DNA from: Salipiger thiooxidans
GTDB taxonomy: Bacteria > Pseudomonadota > Alphaproteobacteria > Rhodobacterales > Rhodobacteraceae
NCBI RefSeq assembly: GCF_900102075.1
Contig: NZ_FNAV01000001.1
Coordinates: 62,001 to 126,000, forward strand
Length of the DNA stretch: 64,000 bases
Direction: 5' to 3'
This document shows positions 10,554 to 55,492 of the stretch, piece by piece. Numbering within the stretch: position 1 is the stretch's first letter; each line of letters begins with the position of its first letter. The translations under genes were made by a program, and so were the position numbers. The notes under the pieces are model-generated. The model made no database searches. It saw only the letters and a program-made list of their open reading frames with translations, and was not told the origin of the DNA.

Positions 10554-10654
10554 GTCGAGAGGTTGGCGCGGGCAGGCACCTCGCCAACCCGGTCAGGTCC
10601 GGAAGGAAGCAGCCGTAACGAGCCCCGCTTGGGTCGTTGTCCAGCCTCTCACCT
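10554..10654 (+). ncRNA. ffs: signal recognition particle RNA, small bacterial (4.5S) type
   Basis: The universally conserved apical loop region GGTCAGGTCCGGAAGGAAGC followed by AGCC is present at 10591-10614, with the GGAA tetraloop and the asymmetric loop that bind Ffh. The outer helix closes: GAGAGGTTGG at the 5' side pairs with CCAGCCTCTC at the 3' side, allowing one G-U. The exact ends are estimates within a few bases. Location upstream of dnaX is usual for Rhodobacterales, though here about 2.7 kb separates them. Confidence 0.93.
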
Positions 10655-50858: not shown

Positions 50859-50903
50859 CGCATATTCTTGGGTGTTTGATCCCACGGTTTGATGGTGTGA
50901 TCC

Positions 50904-50923: not shown

Positions 50924-51052
50924 GTGGGGGATTCATCTCGTGAATCCAGAGTGGTAGCTGGGATGCATTGGCTAACCCACACCCCCAGCCTCAGGACCAG
51001 GAACTGGCCGGCCTGCAATGAAGCGCTCAAGCGCCGTGGCTCTCTGACGATC

Positions 51053-51092
51053 CGTTGACCGTCAGTGCATTGCGCAGCAATGTCACGAGAGG
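51053..51092 (-). repeat. 40-nt head-hairpin-tail unit A (reverse orientation)
   Basis: It interrupts the transposase between LTI and WFDP. In its own direction: head CCTCTCGTGA, arms CATTGC and GCAATG around loop TGC, tail of 15 nt with TGAC/GTCA, then GATC of the target. The empty site is inferred from the expected protein, because copy 2 lacks this part. Confidence 0.75.
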
Positions 51093-51366
51093 TTGGTTCG
51101 ATCCCACCATGACCTGGTATGCCGCACAGACAGGCAGGCGTGGCCGGCAGCGGACCTGCAGCGACGCCGCCATCCAGTCGTGCCTGACGATGAAGGTGTT
51201 GTTTGGTATGGCCCTGAGACAGACGACAGGGTTTGTCGACAGCCTGTTGCGACTGGTGGGCCTCGACTGGTCGGTGCCCGATTTCAGCACTCTATCCCAC
51301 CGCCAGCAGACCCTTGCCGTGAACATCCCCTATCGCGGCTCCAAGGGGCCGCTGCACCTGTTGATC

Positions 51367-51406
51367 CCTCTCGGGACATTACTGCGCAATGCCCTGCCGG
51401 GCAGCG
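51367..51406 (+). repeat. 40-nt head-hairpin-tail unit B
   Basis: Head CCTCTCGGGA, arms CATTAC and GCAATG (one mismatch) around TGC, tail CCCTGCCGGGCAGCG, followed by target GACAGC. Copy 2 has no insertion at the matching site. Confidence 0.85.
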
Positions 51407-51696
51407 GACAGCACTTGGATCAGGGTCGAGGGCGAAGGTGAGTGGCACGCCCGCAAGCATGGGGCCCCAAAAGGCGGGGCTGGCGCAAGATCCACCTTGG
51501 GGTCGACGAGGAAACGCTGAAAATCCGGGCTGTCGACGTCACCGGAAGCCACATTGTCGATGTACCGTCTTGCCCGACCTTCTCGGCCAGATATCGGAGG
51601 GCCAGGAGATCGGCAGCGTCACGGCAGACGGCGCCTGCGATACTCGCAAATGCCACGATGCCATCGCTGACCGCGGCGCACATGCCGTCATCCCCC

Positions 51697-51760
51697 AGAG
51701 CTCCGCTCGTTCAGGGCTGAATTGATCCACCGGATCAATTCCAGGCCGCCCTTCAACCCC
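51697..51760 (+). repeat. about 60-nt palindromic insertion in IS copy 1
   Basis: The dyad at 51719-51741 has perfect 10-bp arms GAATTGATCC and GGATCAATTC with loop ACC. The whole insert is absent from copy 2, where the host frame reads IIPPRKNAKPWK. Outer limits are uncertain by a few bases. Confidence 0.8.
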
Positions 51761-51858
51761 GCAGGAACGCCAGGCCATGGAAGACTGTAACCGCTGACGC
51801 GGTCGCACGAAACGAGGCACTGCGCGCATCAAAATACCTCGGCCGGGCCATTTGGCGA

Positions 51859-51900
51859 CCCCTCTCGGCAGCATCCTGCGGATGCGCCTGCCGGGCAGTG
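51859..51900 (+). repeat. 41-nt head-hairpin-tail unit C (copy 1)
   Basis: Head CCCTCTCGGCA, perfect arms GCATCC and GGATGC around TGC, tail GCCTGCCGGGCAGTG, followed by target GATGGA. The same unit is at the same place in IS copy 2, so it was inserted before the copies separated. Confidence 0.85.
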
Positions 51901-51940
51901 GATGGAGCGGATACCACCGCCGGAGCCGTGTCGGGACGAA

Positions 51941-51981
51941 ACCTGCCGGGATCATGCTGCGCATGACCCTGCCGATCAGTG
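51941..51981 (+). repeat. 41-nt head-hairpin-tail unit D
   Basis: Head ACCTGCCGGGA, perfect arms TCATGC and GCATGA around TGC, tail CCCTGCCGATCAGTG, followed by target GATGCA. Copy 2 reads straight through the site (GAGCAAGATGAAC). Confidence 0.85.
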
Positions 51982-52172
51982 GATGCATTGCGTGAAACCG
52001 ATGGGCCAGCGGCTCATGGCACGGACCTTTGACAGTCAGGTCGCCGACCTCCAGGTTCGCATCGCCGTCCTGAACGGCTACACCGCGCCCGGCATCCCGA
52101 TCACGCTGGCCGCGGGATAGGTCTATCCGGGGAAGGGGTTACCCCGCCCATCACCCGATTTGTGCAACAGAG

Positions 52173-52422
52173 ACAGGCTAAATGCAGGTGCAAGTAAGTC
52201 GTCTGGTAAGGACAATTGCAGAGCTCTTTCAGCTTGTTTTGGTAGAAGGCGGCGGTGGGCATTGGGCCCGACGGCCACATAGGGATCGTAGCAGCCTTGC
52301 GGCAACGCGGCGGCGGCGCCCCGGAGCCAATCTTCTTCACCGGTCATTCGCGACATCGCTTGGTATCGCAGGGTCATGCGATGTCGACGCCTGGGCCGGG
52401 AGGGACGGATGGAGAGAGTCTC
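52173..52422 (+). other. 250-bp spacer before the integrase
   Basis: No gene is supported. A minus-strand open frame runs through it and the integrase, but its codon content over the integrase is that of a shadow; the part unique to the spacer (PQGCYDPYVAVGPNAHRRLL) is not recognised. Confidence 0.4.
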
Positions 52423-53055
52423 ATGTCCAAAATCCAGCTCCCCGCCATCAAGCCGAAGCGACGCCCTTGGAACCGTGGCAGGCTCGTCGGCCAGAAACGG
52501 CCTCTGCTGCCGAAACAGGTCTGGGCGATCCGTGCGCGCCTCGAACTCGCGGGCAACCTTTGCGATCTCGCTCTGTTCAAACTCGCCATCGACGGCAAGT
52601 TGCGGGGCTGCGACCTCGTCGGTCCGAGGGTCGCCGAGCTCGTTGTCGGCGATCGTGTCCGCGAACGCGTATCGGTCATCCAGAGCAAGACGCGCCGCCC
52701 TGTTCAGTTCGAAGTCACGGAAAACACCCGTGCTTTGATCTCGGCTTGGGTGAATCGGCCGGCGACGACCGGCTGCGCCTTCCTGTTCCCGAGCCGGTTT
52801 CATGCCAGACCGCACATTTCGACGCGACAATACGCGCGCCTCGTCCGAGAGTGGGTGACGGCGATCGGTCTCGAGCCGAGCGGCTACGGCACGCACTCGT
52901 TGAGGCGCACCAAGGCTGCACAAATCTACCGCAAGACAGGCAATCTTCGCGCAGTCCAGCTCCTGCTCGGTCACACCAAGGTGGACAGTACTGTCCGCTA
53001 CCTGGGCGTTGAACTTGAGGATGCTCTGAGCATCGCGGAGTCGGTCGACATTTGA
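52423..53055 (+). CDS. tyrosine-type site-specific recombinase (integrase)
   Basis: The start at ATG 52423 follows GGAGAGAG. The 210-residue protein is a compact catalytic domain without the usual N-terminal core-binding domain. Catalytic set: Arg in LAIDGKLRGCDLV, the HxxR box THSLRRTKAAQIY, His in LLLGHTKVDS, and nucleophile Tyr in TVRYLGVE. Similar short integrases are common on plasmids and islands of Rhodobacterales. It is intact between two broken IS copies, so it could be the mobile core of this pocket. No att sites were identified. Confidence 0.87.
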   Translation: MSKIQLPAIKPKRRPWNRGRLVGQKRPLLPKQVWAIRARLELAGNLCDLALFKLAIDGKLRGCDLVGPRVAELVVGDRVRERVSVIQSKTRRPVQFEVTENTRALISAWVNRPATTGCAFLFPSRFHARPHISTRQYARLVREWVTAIGLEPSGYGTHSLRRTKAAQIYRKTGNLRAVQLLLGHTKVDSTVRYLGVELEDALSIAESVDI

Positions 53056-53062
53056 TACCTTC

Positions 53063-53086
53063 GGCGGACGGCGCACGCCGTTCGCC
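53063..53086 (+). terminator. 10-bp stem just after the integrase
   Basis: GGCGGACGGC and GCCGTTCGCC pair with one mismatch around GCAC, eight bases after the stop. No T run follows, so the terminator role is tentative. Confidence 0.45.
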
Positions 53087-53232
53087 AGCCGAGACCGGAC
53101 GTGCGAGGAGATACGTGCCGACGTGGGCTTCGAGCCCACAGCTGTCGCTCTTGTCGGGCGCAGCGAAAGACGAAGTCGGACCCGAAGGCGGAGTTTCTCC
53201 GGGCACGAAGTGCGTGCGGCCTTCGTACGCCT

Positions 53233-53604
53233 TTAGCTGTCCGTGGAGCAGGTGACGGCCTCCCAGTCATCGATTTCCTGGAGCATCGCATGAAGCCGCT
53301 TGCGCACAAGGCCGAGCGCGTCGCTGCCGAGCAGAAGCTGCGGCGGGGGAGTGTCCGACATCACGAGGCCGAGGACGGCCTCAGCGAGCTTGGCGGGGTC
53401 GCCGAGCTGGGCGCCGTGCTTTTCCTGCCGCGCTTGGCGGATCGGGTCGAAGAAACTGTCGTAATCGCTGATAGAGCGTTCGCTCCGAACCATGGATCGA
53501 CCTGCCCAGTCGGTGCGGAAGGAGCCGGGGCAAAGTGCCGTTACATGCACCCCGAATGGCGCCATCTCGCTGCGCATGACCTCGGAGATGCCCTGCAGTG
53601 CGAA
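53233..53604 (-). pseudogene. SDR-family oxidoreductase, 5' part removed by IS copy 2
   Basis: The surviving C-terminal third has MAPFGVHVTALCPGSFRTDW and LGDPAKLAEAVLGLV, typical of short-chain dehydrogenases after the YxxxK site. Reading upstream, FALQGISEVMRSEM is still in frame up to about 53604, where a stop appears and IS sequence begins. The Rossmann fold and catalytic residues are gone from this locus. Confidence 0.85.
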
Positions 53605-53769
53605 CTACCGCGGCGGCGCGGGTCCGCTGAACCTGCTGATCTGTCTACAGGCATCAAGGCCGAAGGCGAAGGCGAGTGGAACGCTCGCAAGCACGGGGGC
53701 TCAAAGCGCCGCATCTGGCGCAAGATACACATCGGCATCGACGAGGAAACGCTGGAGGTTCGGGCCGTC

Positions 53770-53812
53770 CATTGCCCGACAGGCGATTTGCATGGCAAAT
53801 CTGCCGAGAGGG
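53770..53812 (-). repeat. 43-nt head-hairpin-tail unit E (reverse orientation)
   Basis: In its own direction: head CCCTCTCGGCA, perfect 7-bp arms GATTTGC and GCAAATC around loop CAT, tail GCCTGTCGGGCAATG, followed by target GACGGC. IS copy 1 has no insertion at the matching site. The arms share no sequence with those of units A-D beyond chance. Confidence 0.85.
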
Positions 53813-54077
53813 GAGGTCACGGGAAGCAATGTGGGCGATGCGCCCGTCTTGCCTGACTTGCTCGACCAGATCCCGTCCGATGAAGAGATCGGTTCCGTGA
53901 CGGCAGATGGCGCATACGATACCCGCAAGTGCCACGAGGCAATCGCTGCCCGTTGTGCCGCTGCGATCATCCCGCCCCGCAAGAACGCCAAGCCGTGGAA
54001 ACCGACGAGCCCCGGAGCCATCGCCCGCAATGAGGCTCTGCGCGCTTCCAAATATTTGGGTCGCGCCATCTGGCGAC

Positions 54078-54118
54078 CCCTCTCGGCAGCATCCTGCGGA
54101 TGCGCCTGCCGGGCAGTG
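54078..54118 (+). repeat. 41-nt head-hairpin-tail unit C' (copy 2)
   Basis: Identical to unit C of copy 1 with the same junctions (TGGCGAC before, GATGGA after). Confidence 0.85.
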
Positions 54119-54351
54119 GATGGAGCGGATACCACCGCCGGAGCCGGGTCGAGAGCAAGATGAACTGCATCAAGCTGCTCGGCCAATCCCTCATGGCCCG
54201 AGACTTCGACCCCCAGGTCGCCGAGTTGCAGGGTCGTATCGCCGTGCTGAACGGCTACACAGCGCTCGGCATACCCGTCGCGGAAGCTGTGGGATAGGTC
54301 CGTCCGGGGAAAGGGGAACCTCGGTGTTCAGACGATTTGTGCAACAGAGCC

Positions 54352-54658: not shown

Positions 54659-55492
54659 ATGGAGACCAGCTTGGCACGAGACCTGATGTCGGACGAGGAG
54701 TGGGCGTTCTTTGAGCGGTTCATCCTGGCTGTCCGCGCCCAGAATGGGCGCAAACCGACCAACCACCGCCTTGTGCTTGACGGGATATTCTGGATTTCCC
54801 GAACCGGTGCCCCTGGGCGTGACCTGCCCGAAGAGTTCGGCAAGTGGTCGAATGTCTATCGGCAGTTCCGACGCTGGACGCTGGCGGGATTGTGGGAGGA
54901 CATCATGGACGCGCTGAACCAAAGCCGGGCGGTGCCGGACGCCCTGCAGATGATCGACAGCACCGTGATCCGCGCCCATCATCAGGCAGCGGGCGCAAAA
55001 GGGGGACTCCGTGTCAGGGTTTTGGCCGTTCGCGAGCGTCCGATGGGAAAACAGTCCGCTGGACTGTTTTCTGGACCATCTTCCACTTCACGACCAAGAT
55101 CCACTTCCGCGTCAACTCAGCAGGCCTGCCCATGAGAACCGAAATCACGCCGGGCCAGACTTCCGATTACATGGGCTTTGATCTGGTGATGGCCGACAAT
55201 CTTCCTGAGCCGAGCGTCCTGGTGGCCGATAGAGGCTATGATGCTGACAGCATTCGGAAAAAGATGGAGGCGCGGGACGTTCTCACCCAAATCCCCATGC
55301 GCAAATCCAAGGAAGATGCGCGTCGGTGTGGATCACTCCCTGTATTCGTGGCGCAACTTGCTCGAACGGTGCTTCAACAAACTGAAGAACGCTCGCCGGG
55401 TCGCAACCCGCTACGACAAGACCGCTGAGAGCTTCCTCGGCTTCATAGACATCACCTCCATCCGCCTCTGGCTGCGTCTTTTGTCAACATGA
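54659..55492 (+). pseudogene. IS5-family transposase, frameshifted (third element)
   Basis: Starts METSLARDLMSDEEWAFFER. DDE residues are in MIDSTVIRAHHQ, VLVADRGYDADSIRKKM and ERCFNKLKNARRVATRYDK. The frame changes at a G run near 55008 and again near 55310, more breaks than a single programmed frameshift. Between them a palindromic insert adds about 15 residues without a stop. Confidence 0.88.
55041..55086 (+). repeat. about 45-50 nt palindromic insertion in the third IS
   Basis: The dyad at 55047-55071 has perfect 11-bp arms GAAAACAGTCC and GGACTGTTTTC with loop GCT. It replaces the usual short GG of GRSRGGFTTK with ASDGKTVRWTVFWTIFH, in frame. Confidence 0.8.

Follow-up and report, generated by a model that had tools for sequence, protein, structure and literature searches.

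Two IS5-like transposase remnants in Salipiger thiooxidans are interrupted by six short inserts of five kinds (A, B, C/C', D and E). These probably belong to a family of non-autonomous, hairpin-recognised insertion elements of about 41 nt, which lodge in insertion sequences (IS), break the transposase and move by IS copying and by recombination between IS copies. The window, that is the whole stretch of DNA analysed, covers 64,000 nt (GCF_900102075.1, NZ_FNAV01000001.1, forward strand, positions 62,001-126,000). An earlier note on this DNA had placed the inserts in two copies of an IS5 transposase; comparison with uninterrupted homologues, by which the exact limits were set, confirms this for all six. 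The features are as follows, with covariance model (CM) scores:

51007..52120 (approximate), + strand: IS5-like transposase remnant, copy 1, carrying four elements and additional frameshifts (projected tblastn extent, stop codon, frameshifting indels)
51053..51093, - strand: element A, 41 nt, in IS5 copy 1, antisense to the transposase (CM 58.3 bits; uninterrupted in L029, L034, L036 and L102)
51367..51406, + strand: element B, 40 nt, in IS5 copy 1, sense (CM 67.7 bits; uninterrupted in L081 and L102)
51860..51900, + strand: element C, 41 nt, in IS5 copy 1, sense (CM 69.6 bits; uninterrupted in L029 and L081)
51941..51981, + strand: element D, 41 nt, in IS5 copy 1, sense, with the variant head CCTGCCGGGA (CM 53.7 bits; uninterrupted in L075 and L081)
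53606..54297 (approximate), + strand: IS5-like transposase remnant, copy 2, 5'-truncated, with two elements (sequence, ORF end, alignment to L255)
53770..53812, - strand: element E, 43 nt with a 7-bp arm, in IS5 copy 2, antisense (CM 53.4 bits; absent exactly in L255)
54078..54118, + strand: element C', 41 nt, identical in sequence to C, in IS5 copy 2, sense (CM 69.6 bits; absent exactly in L255)

The assignment of the host to IS5 relies on a 186-aa piece of the L081 homologue, which matches Pfam DDE_Tnp_1 with an E value of 3.6e-32. The lengths first given for B, C, D and E (40, 41, 41 and 43 nt) hold, whereas A measures 41 and not 40 nt.

The element combines a conserved head, CCCTCTC, a covarying hairpin with its extrahelical A, and a tail, TGCCGGGCAGTG, that is conserved and nearly palindromic. 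That the core keeps its pairing while its sequence changes, as originally claimed, is borne out on 18 rows, where 98.3 % of cells are paired compared with 76.1 % in shuffles, and on 85 distinct sequences (96 % compared with 75 %). The stem extends further than first described: it comprises three outer pairs, the extrahelical A and 6-7 pairs, and the outer pair adjoining the extrahelical A also alternates between G-C and C-G. Across the 85 distinct sequences the extrahelical A is kept and the 3-nt loop mostly so; the small tail stem is present but weaker than this core, its third pair being broken in 18 of the 85 rows. There are 103 distinct stem-loop sequences; among 209 parsed copies, 192 have the extrahelical A, 180 a 6-bp arm with a 3-nt loop and 148 a perfect stem. 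Folded singly, four element strands do only modestly better than shuffles (z -1.3 to -1.7). No Rfam family matched between positions 50900 and 54400 of the window up to an E value of 1.

The covariance model detects 79 copies in the window's genome (78 under the stricter filters, with which the per-genome counts are complete). Chance is excluded as the origin of this pattern because the strict head-to-tail arrangement occurs 23 times in the genome read forward and never in the backward reading. Within the same genome, 17 of 18 head matches belong to full elements and the 18th to a decayed one, all 11 tail matches belong to full elements, and these head and tail searches revealed no larger parent carrying the same ends. 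Elements are present in 27 of 37 genomes of the same family, Rhodobacteraceae, and in none of 24 genomes of other families; copy numbers reach 74 in G011, 30 in G001, 16 in G002 and 15 in G017, and a separate search for copies in related genomes listed at least 116 stretches. The covariance-model search proposed in the earlier note thus yielded many further copies, and its idea of a small mobile element recognised by its structure and lacking a known name is supported by covariation, filled/empty pairs and these copies. No description of the family was found in the open-licence PMC literature.

Such elements reside almost exclusively in IS. Out of 243 copies with distinct flanks (repeated flanks and flanks shorter than 100 nt on either side being excluded), 219 lie, as a raw count, within recognised IS of ten families. 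The IS were named with 62 references picked by eye from those same flanks; a Pfam check of 17 of these placed nine above and four below the cut-off and left four without confirmation. In the window's own genome this location applies to 71 of 72 rows, representing 31 distinct sites. Seven of the 219 sit in the noncoding end of IS110, both orientations occur, and three of the 243 copies are found within tyrosine-recombinase genes. Copy number rises with the number of IS5 matches (23 genomes; rho 0.63, p 0.001), a correlation that is partly circular because a single IS5 copy interrupted by an element yields several matches. The bias towards IS could reflect either survivorship or target choice. 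A stronger version of the latter, in which a dedicated system puts the 41-nt hairpin into IS DNA as a class, making the element a genome-wide IS inactivator or a transposon-specialised parasite, appears rather unlikely.

Comparison of filled and empty sites shows that the elements are real insertions and not ancestral IS sequence. An uninterrupted homologue was found among the fetched loci, to which the search was confined, for 129 of the 243 copies, and a congeneric genome has an IS5 copy (L255), 97 % identical to window copy 2, from which E and C' are exactly missing; the filled/empty comparison suggested earlier therefore shows the blocks not to be ancestral to the IS. That diverged IS copies carry blocks at the same site would suit blocks that were ancestral parts lost from some copies, but the same block interrupts IS of ten families as well as a few other genes, and L138 and L029 regain their frame when it is removed, so that such losses are extremely improbable. 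Insertion occurs directly before GA(T/C): downstream of 136 distinct sites the bases are G (121), A (116), T or C (83 and 40) and G (89), the pattern used to collect loci having fixed the G and the A but not the next two positions. The upstream flank of these sites carries no informative signal. The 3' junction, before GATG, is precise, while the 5' junction is looser and varies in its number of Cs. No target duplication is longer than one base; E and C' add exactly 43 and 41 nt, and at most a single base might be repeated at the 5' junction. Beside C', additional mismatches to L255 are seen, but 28 pooled pairs showed no such co-conversion next to insertions.

Elements recur at the same site in diverged IS copies, and part of this recurrence is, judging from the IS5 tree, inheritance or conversion. 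On this tree, site B, with 16 rows filled and 26 empty, requires at least nine filled/empty changes, four of them forced by well-supported branches, and filled rows cluster more tightly than shuffling would give (13.0 changes on average, with 15 of 500 shuffles equally low); the cores common to copies at one site suggest the same. At site C three filled rows need three changes, no fewer than in shuffles. The IS copies themselves are mosaic: between C and D, window copy 1 shares 98 % identity with L051, compared with 83 % overall, and just upstream of C it is 97 % identical to L100, where L051 reaches 73 %. Exchange of elements between IS copies by homologous recombination is therefore supported. 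This mosaic exchange, the near-restriction to IS of many families and the one-sided target GA(T/C) were beyond the sight of the earlier note.

Could the interrupted transposases still function, the elements being tolerated, cut out of the mRNA or skipped during translation? The frames of L138 and L029 are intact but for one element, element A contains a TTG start codon in frame with the transposase, and an IS lineage bearing A is found at the ends of eight contigs. Moreover, dN/dS is 0.17-0.28 for multi-element IS copies and 0.07-0.12 for intact or single-element pairs (ranges that omit pairs with the badly aligned or truncated copies L074, L077, L087, L089, L090 and L026, at 0.22-0.96). Values of multi-element copies so far below 1 are odd for long-dead genes unless death was recent or recombination intervened. 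However, the elements lie both ways round in the transposase, a length of 41 nt is not divisible by three, L069, L051, L100 and the window copy contain other frameshifts, and G017, G009 and G019 have several element-free, multi-copy transposases open across the whole 186-aa query. Ribosomal bypass was rejected since take-off and landing codons, read by eye, differ at the four sites compared, B, C and D among them. Continued function is thus very unlikely.

As to the mover, none was found among the Y1 transposase, reverse transcriptase and local tyrosine recombinase candidates. A REP-like element moved on single-stranded DNA by an HUH Y1 transposase (IS200/IS605 or RAYT) is conceivable, albeit unlikely. 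Viewed on the opposite strand, the element is immediately 3' to 5'-CATC/CGTC, and an extrahelical T sits on the 3' side of its hairpin; a tetranucleotide flank and a hairpin with an extrahelical T are typical of IS200/IS605 substrates, and the lack of a target duplication beyond one base also fits. Y1 genes occur in 8 of the 37 genomes. Yet the element has a single hairpin, no PF01797 match exists in the window's own genome with its 79 copies (a control search was positive in 5 of 14 reference genomes) nor any Y1 gene in G011 with 74, and Y1 presence does not correlate with copy number (rho 0.08). The Y1 genes of L132 and L246 are near elements lodged in other IS, and their adjoining hairpins differ by eye; L243, L244 and L245 gave no match up to an E value of 5. 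Retro-insertion of a short structured RNA by target-primed reverse transcription would suit the precise 3' junction and the variable 5' Cs, and a single RVT_1 match is present in the window's genome. It is nevertheless improbable, given that RVT_1 has no match in G011, G001, G002 or G017 and does not follow copy number (rho -0.09). A tyrosine recombinase encoded between the two IS copies (a Phage_integrase ORF) was likewise discarded as driver: it shows no copy-number correlation (rho 0.18) and has no match in the element-carrying G017, G019 and G006.

The analogy first drawn with REP and Rickettsia palindromic elements (RPE) is valid in that all are small palindromes but fails on more specific features. 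REP of the GTAG/CGTC super-families are described as dispersed palindromic repeats of 20-40 bp with alternative covarying stems, the CGTC type being common in alphaproteobacteria without a dedicated transposase (PMC3733652). The element shares such a palindrome with a covarying stem. However, it lacks a terminal unpaired GTAG/CGTC, ending in CCCTCTC and CAGTG at 136 distinct sites; CATC/CGTC is here the host flank outside the element; its conserved head and tail are long; and REP are predominantly extragenic, unlike this IS-borne element. In GTAG-type REP a RAYT (Y1) gene is flanked by the repeats, a gene that the window's genome lacks. RPE also lodge inside genes, but in-frame, whereas 207 of the 243 copies are 41 nt long and therefore break rather than extend the protein. 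Like MITEs, the elements are short, non-autonomous and dispersed, with filled and empty sites; unlike them, they have no terminal inverted repeats, no target duplication of more than one base and, in the own genome, no parent sharing only their ends. Group II introns often share residence in mobile elements and rarely interrupt housekeeping genes, according to PMC6003770, but the 41-nt element gives no sign of splicing and does not track reverse transcriptase.

In the insertion-element reading favoured here, an enzyme supplied in trans would recognise the folded single strand by its hairpin and extrahelical base, its ends and a flank of 3-4 nt, and would insert it before GA(T/C), disrupting the transposase frame. 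Copies outside IS would be rare, being lost or never multiplying, while those inside would multiply and spread along with the IS. Once within an IS family, elements also cross between its copies by homologous recombination, as the mosaics support. The exact filled/empty pairs, the strict fold with its extrahelical base and the short one-sided target should allow the moving enzyme to be tracked down experimentally, and the near-confinement to IS raises the choice between survival, hitch-hiking and transposon targeting. If true, this reading adds a widespread small mobile element to the Rhodobacteraceae, an important marine family, and would account for many of its transposase pseudogenes.

Six short blocks break up both IS5-like transposase gene remnants of the window (G000:C39:62001-126000, part of a 5.87 Mb draft genome). 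The earlier note's description of these inserts was correct overall and one base off in A, which measures 41 nt against uninterrupted homologues.

Inserts and their hosts in the window (element limits from uninterrupted homologues)
about 51007-52120, first IS5-like transposase gene remnant
51053-51093, antisense (-), element A, 41 nt
51367-51406, sense, element B, 40 nt
51860-51900, sense, element C, 41 nt
51941-51981, sense, element D, 41 nt
about 53606-54297, second IS5-like transposase gene remnant
53770-53812, antisense (-), element E, 43 nt
54078-54118, element C', 41 nt

The same gene thus holds both orientations. A second insert type of about 62 nt (51696-51756) also breaks it; its palindrome is AATTGATCC-ACC-GGATCAATT (51720-51740), and the core of this insert is present three times in the genome, each time within a multi-element IS5 copy. 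A Phage_integrase ORF (tyrosine recombinase, 52255-53055) lies between the two remnants. The region's third IS5-like gene carries a palindrome, AAAACAGTCC-GCT-GGACTGTTTT (55048-55070), whose variants AAACAGTCC and AAACGGTCC recur among the fetched loci.

The elements are insertions. The comparison of filled and empty sites that had been proposed earlier yielded an uninterrupted homologue among the fetched loci for 129 of 243 copies with distinct flanks. In a congeneric genome, an IS5 copy (L255) that is 97 % identical over aligned bases to the window's second copy has exact gaps in place of E (43 nt) and C' (41 nt); the two copies also differ by 6-nt and 2-nt indels elsewhere. Target duplication is one base at most: a single repeated base is conceivable at the 5' junction because at sites A and D (the gene positions these elements occupy) the element's first base, A, adjoins a host A. 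Over 136 distinct sites, the downstream flank reads G (121), A (116), T (83) or C (40), G (89), where the first G and A were preset by the pattern that collected the named loci and the T/C and next G were free; the upstream flank of these sites gave no signal.

Length is 41 nt in 207 of the 243 copies. The plan runs from a head, CCCTCTC, through three outer pairs, an extrahelical A and six pairs to the tail TGCCGGGCAGTG. Among 209 copies parsed for the stem, the extrahelical A lies on its 5' side in 192, six pairs enclose a 3-nt loop (mostly TGC, TTC or TTT) in 180, and the stem is perfect in 148; 103 stem-loop sequences are distinct. The core stem covaries, as the earlier note had read from the window's few units: over 85 distinct rows, fitted to the covariance model's structure, 96.0 % of stem cells are paired and the covariation score reaches 0.471, against 75.3 % and 0.117 for shuffles, and shifting the partner by one column brings pairing below 40 %. 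In the initial 18-row alignment, which was not so fitted, pairing is 98.3 % versus 76.1 %. Two further measures are uninformative in the 85-row set, since many shuffles equalled them: 84 of 500 for pairs with two-sided changes and 109 for pair types. Single-sequence folding is only weakly better than that of shuffles. No Rfam family matched the element in the region of the IS5 remnants; the window's only gathering-level match is a bacterial small SRP RNA (10557-10653).

In the source genome, 23 copies fit a strict pattern that, read backwards, has 0 matches; at E up to 0.001 the covariance model detects 79. Further copies, sought with this model as had been suggested, occur in 27 of 61 genomes, by filters that lose some weak matches; all are among the 37 of the window's family, and the 24 from other families of the same class have none. 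A scan of named genomes gave at least 116 stretches with the element. Among 80 titles listed, all but one are Rhodobacteraceae/Roseobacter-group or unresolved Alphaproteobacteria or Rhodobacterales; the exception, L166, is labelled Enemella evansiae, probably wrongly. Plasmid records with matches number 146 and 118 (one count per consensus form), including some from Agrobacterium, Rhizobium and Sinorhizobium, and five viral contigs carry the element.

Hosts were assigned to 222 of the 243 copies by homology to 62 reference fragments, named by eye, and one IS110 end, named from plasmid annotation: IS5 113, IS3 63, IS481-type 10, IS66 7, IS110 noncoding end 7, IS30 6, IS256 6, IS21 4, tyrosine recombinase 3, IS1182 2 and IS1380 1. 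A Pfam check of 17 reference fragments confirmed 9 above cut-off and 4 below, with 4 left without confirmation. Of 21 unassigned copies, L094, L035, L109 and L186 are IS-like by eye. The assigned host was an IS for 71 of 72 rows from the source genome (31 distinct sites), and the remaining one, L094, clusters with an IS481-type group. An initial Pfam pass over 30 flank fragments found transposase or integrase domains in 7 (from 5 loci), other genes in 4 (LysR, Tle1-like domain, alanine racemase, HTH) and no match in 19. Elements also break a toxin-like gene adjoining a helix-turn-helix gene (L031 1501-1546, L239 1468-1513), a host seen in both a genome and a viral contig. In an IS110-like element, one noncoding-end position is filled in L098, L132, L146, L182, L189 and L229; plasmids contain homologues that are about 41 nt shorter by span.

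The spread of the elements probably has two layers, fresh insertion by a putative enzyme and then exchange among IS copies. On the IS5 tree, site B (16 rows filled, 26 empty) requires at least 9 changes, 4 of them forced by well-supported branches, and its filled rows still cluster more tightly than shuffled ones, which need 13.0 changes on average; site C, filled in 3 of 22 rows, requires 3. The core at any given site is usually identical between copies, and in most same-site pairs the element is more similar than its flanks. IS copies with several elements are mosaics. From C to D the window copy shares 98 % identity with locus L051; just before C this drops to 73 %, and it is L100 that is 97 % identical there. 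In L073 (1501-1546) and L112 (1983-2028) the left flank of site B is joined to the right flank of site D, hybrids that likely arose by deletion through recombination between two elements.

For the most part, the elements mark disabled IS copies. With the elements removed, L138 and L029 each have a single frame that stays open across the 310-aa reference, and so does L081, as follows from how that reference was built; L069, L051, L100 and the window copy have further frameshifts. In the compared part, intact IS5 copies free of elements are common, e.g., in the related genomes G017, G009 and G019. Site A is a possible exception: it lies near the gene start, and translation could restart at a TTG within the element. 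Pairs of intact or single-element IS5 copies have a dN/dS of 0.07-0.12, and L051, L100, the window copy, L054 and L069 have 0.17-0.28 among themselves, values that favour recent or repeated disabling over long neutral drift. Eight contigs end in an IS5 lineage with element A (L078-L080, L082-L086), as would be expected of a multi-copy IS whose gene carries an element close to its start.

Fold, ends, target, insertion and location of the element were observed; a putative enzyme acting in trans would recognise its folded single strand. Read on the complementary strand, it is positioned directly 3' of CATC/CGTC and its hairpin bears an extrahelical T, an arrangement reminiscent of IS200/IS605 substrates. 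No Y1 (HUH transposase) gene was found in the source genome. Across 23 same-family genomes, element copy number tracks neither Y1 (rho 0.08), reverse transcriptase (rho -0.09) nor the window's tyrosine recombinase (rho 0.18), and rises with IS5 matches (0.63, p 0.001), of which a broken IS5 copy gives several.

A search of an open-licence paper library found no description of the family. REPs carry GTAG or CGTC as tags, the CGTC type being predominant in alphaproteobacteria and without a dedicated transposase (PMC3733652). The family has size and stem variation in common with REPs but differs in tag and location; its length sets it apart from RPE and its ends from MITE. The elements form a real, widespread, structured insertion family that resides, unusually, in insertion sequences and is a variant of small palindromic mobile repeats.
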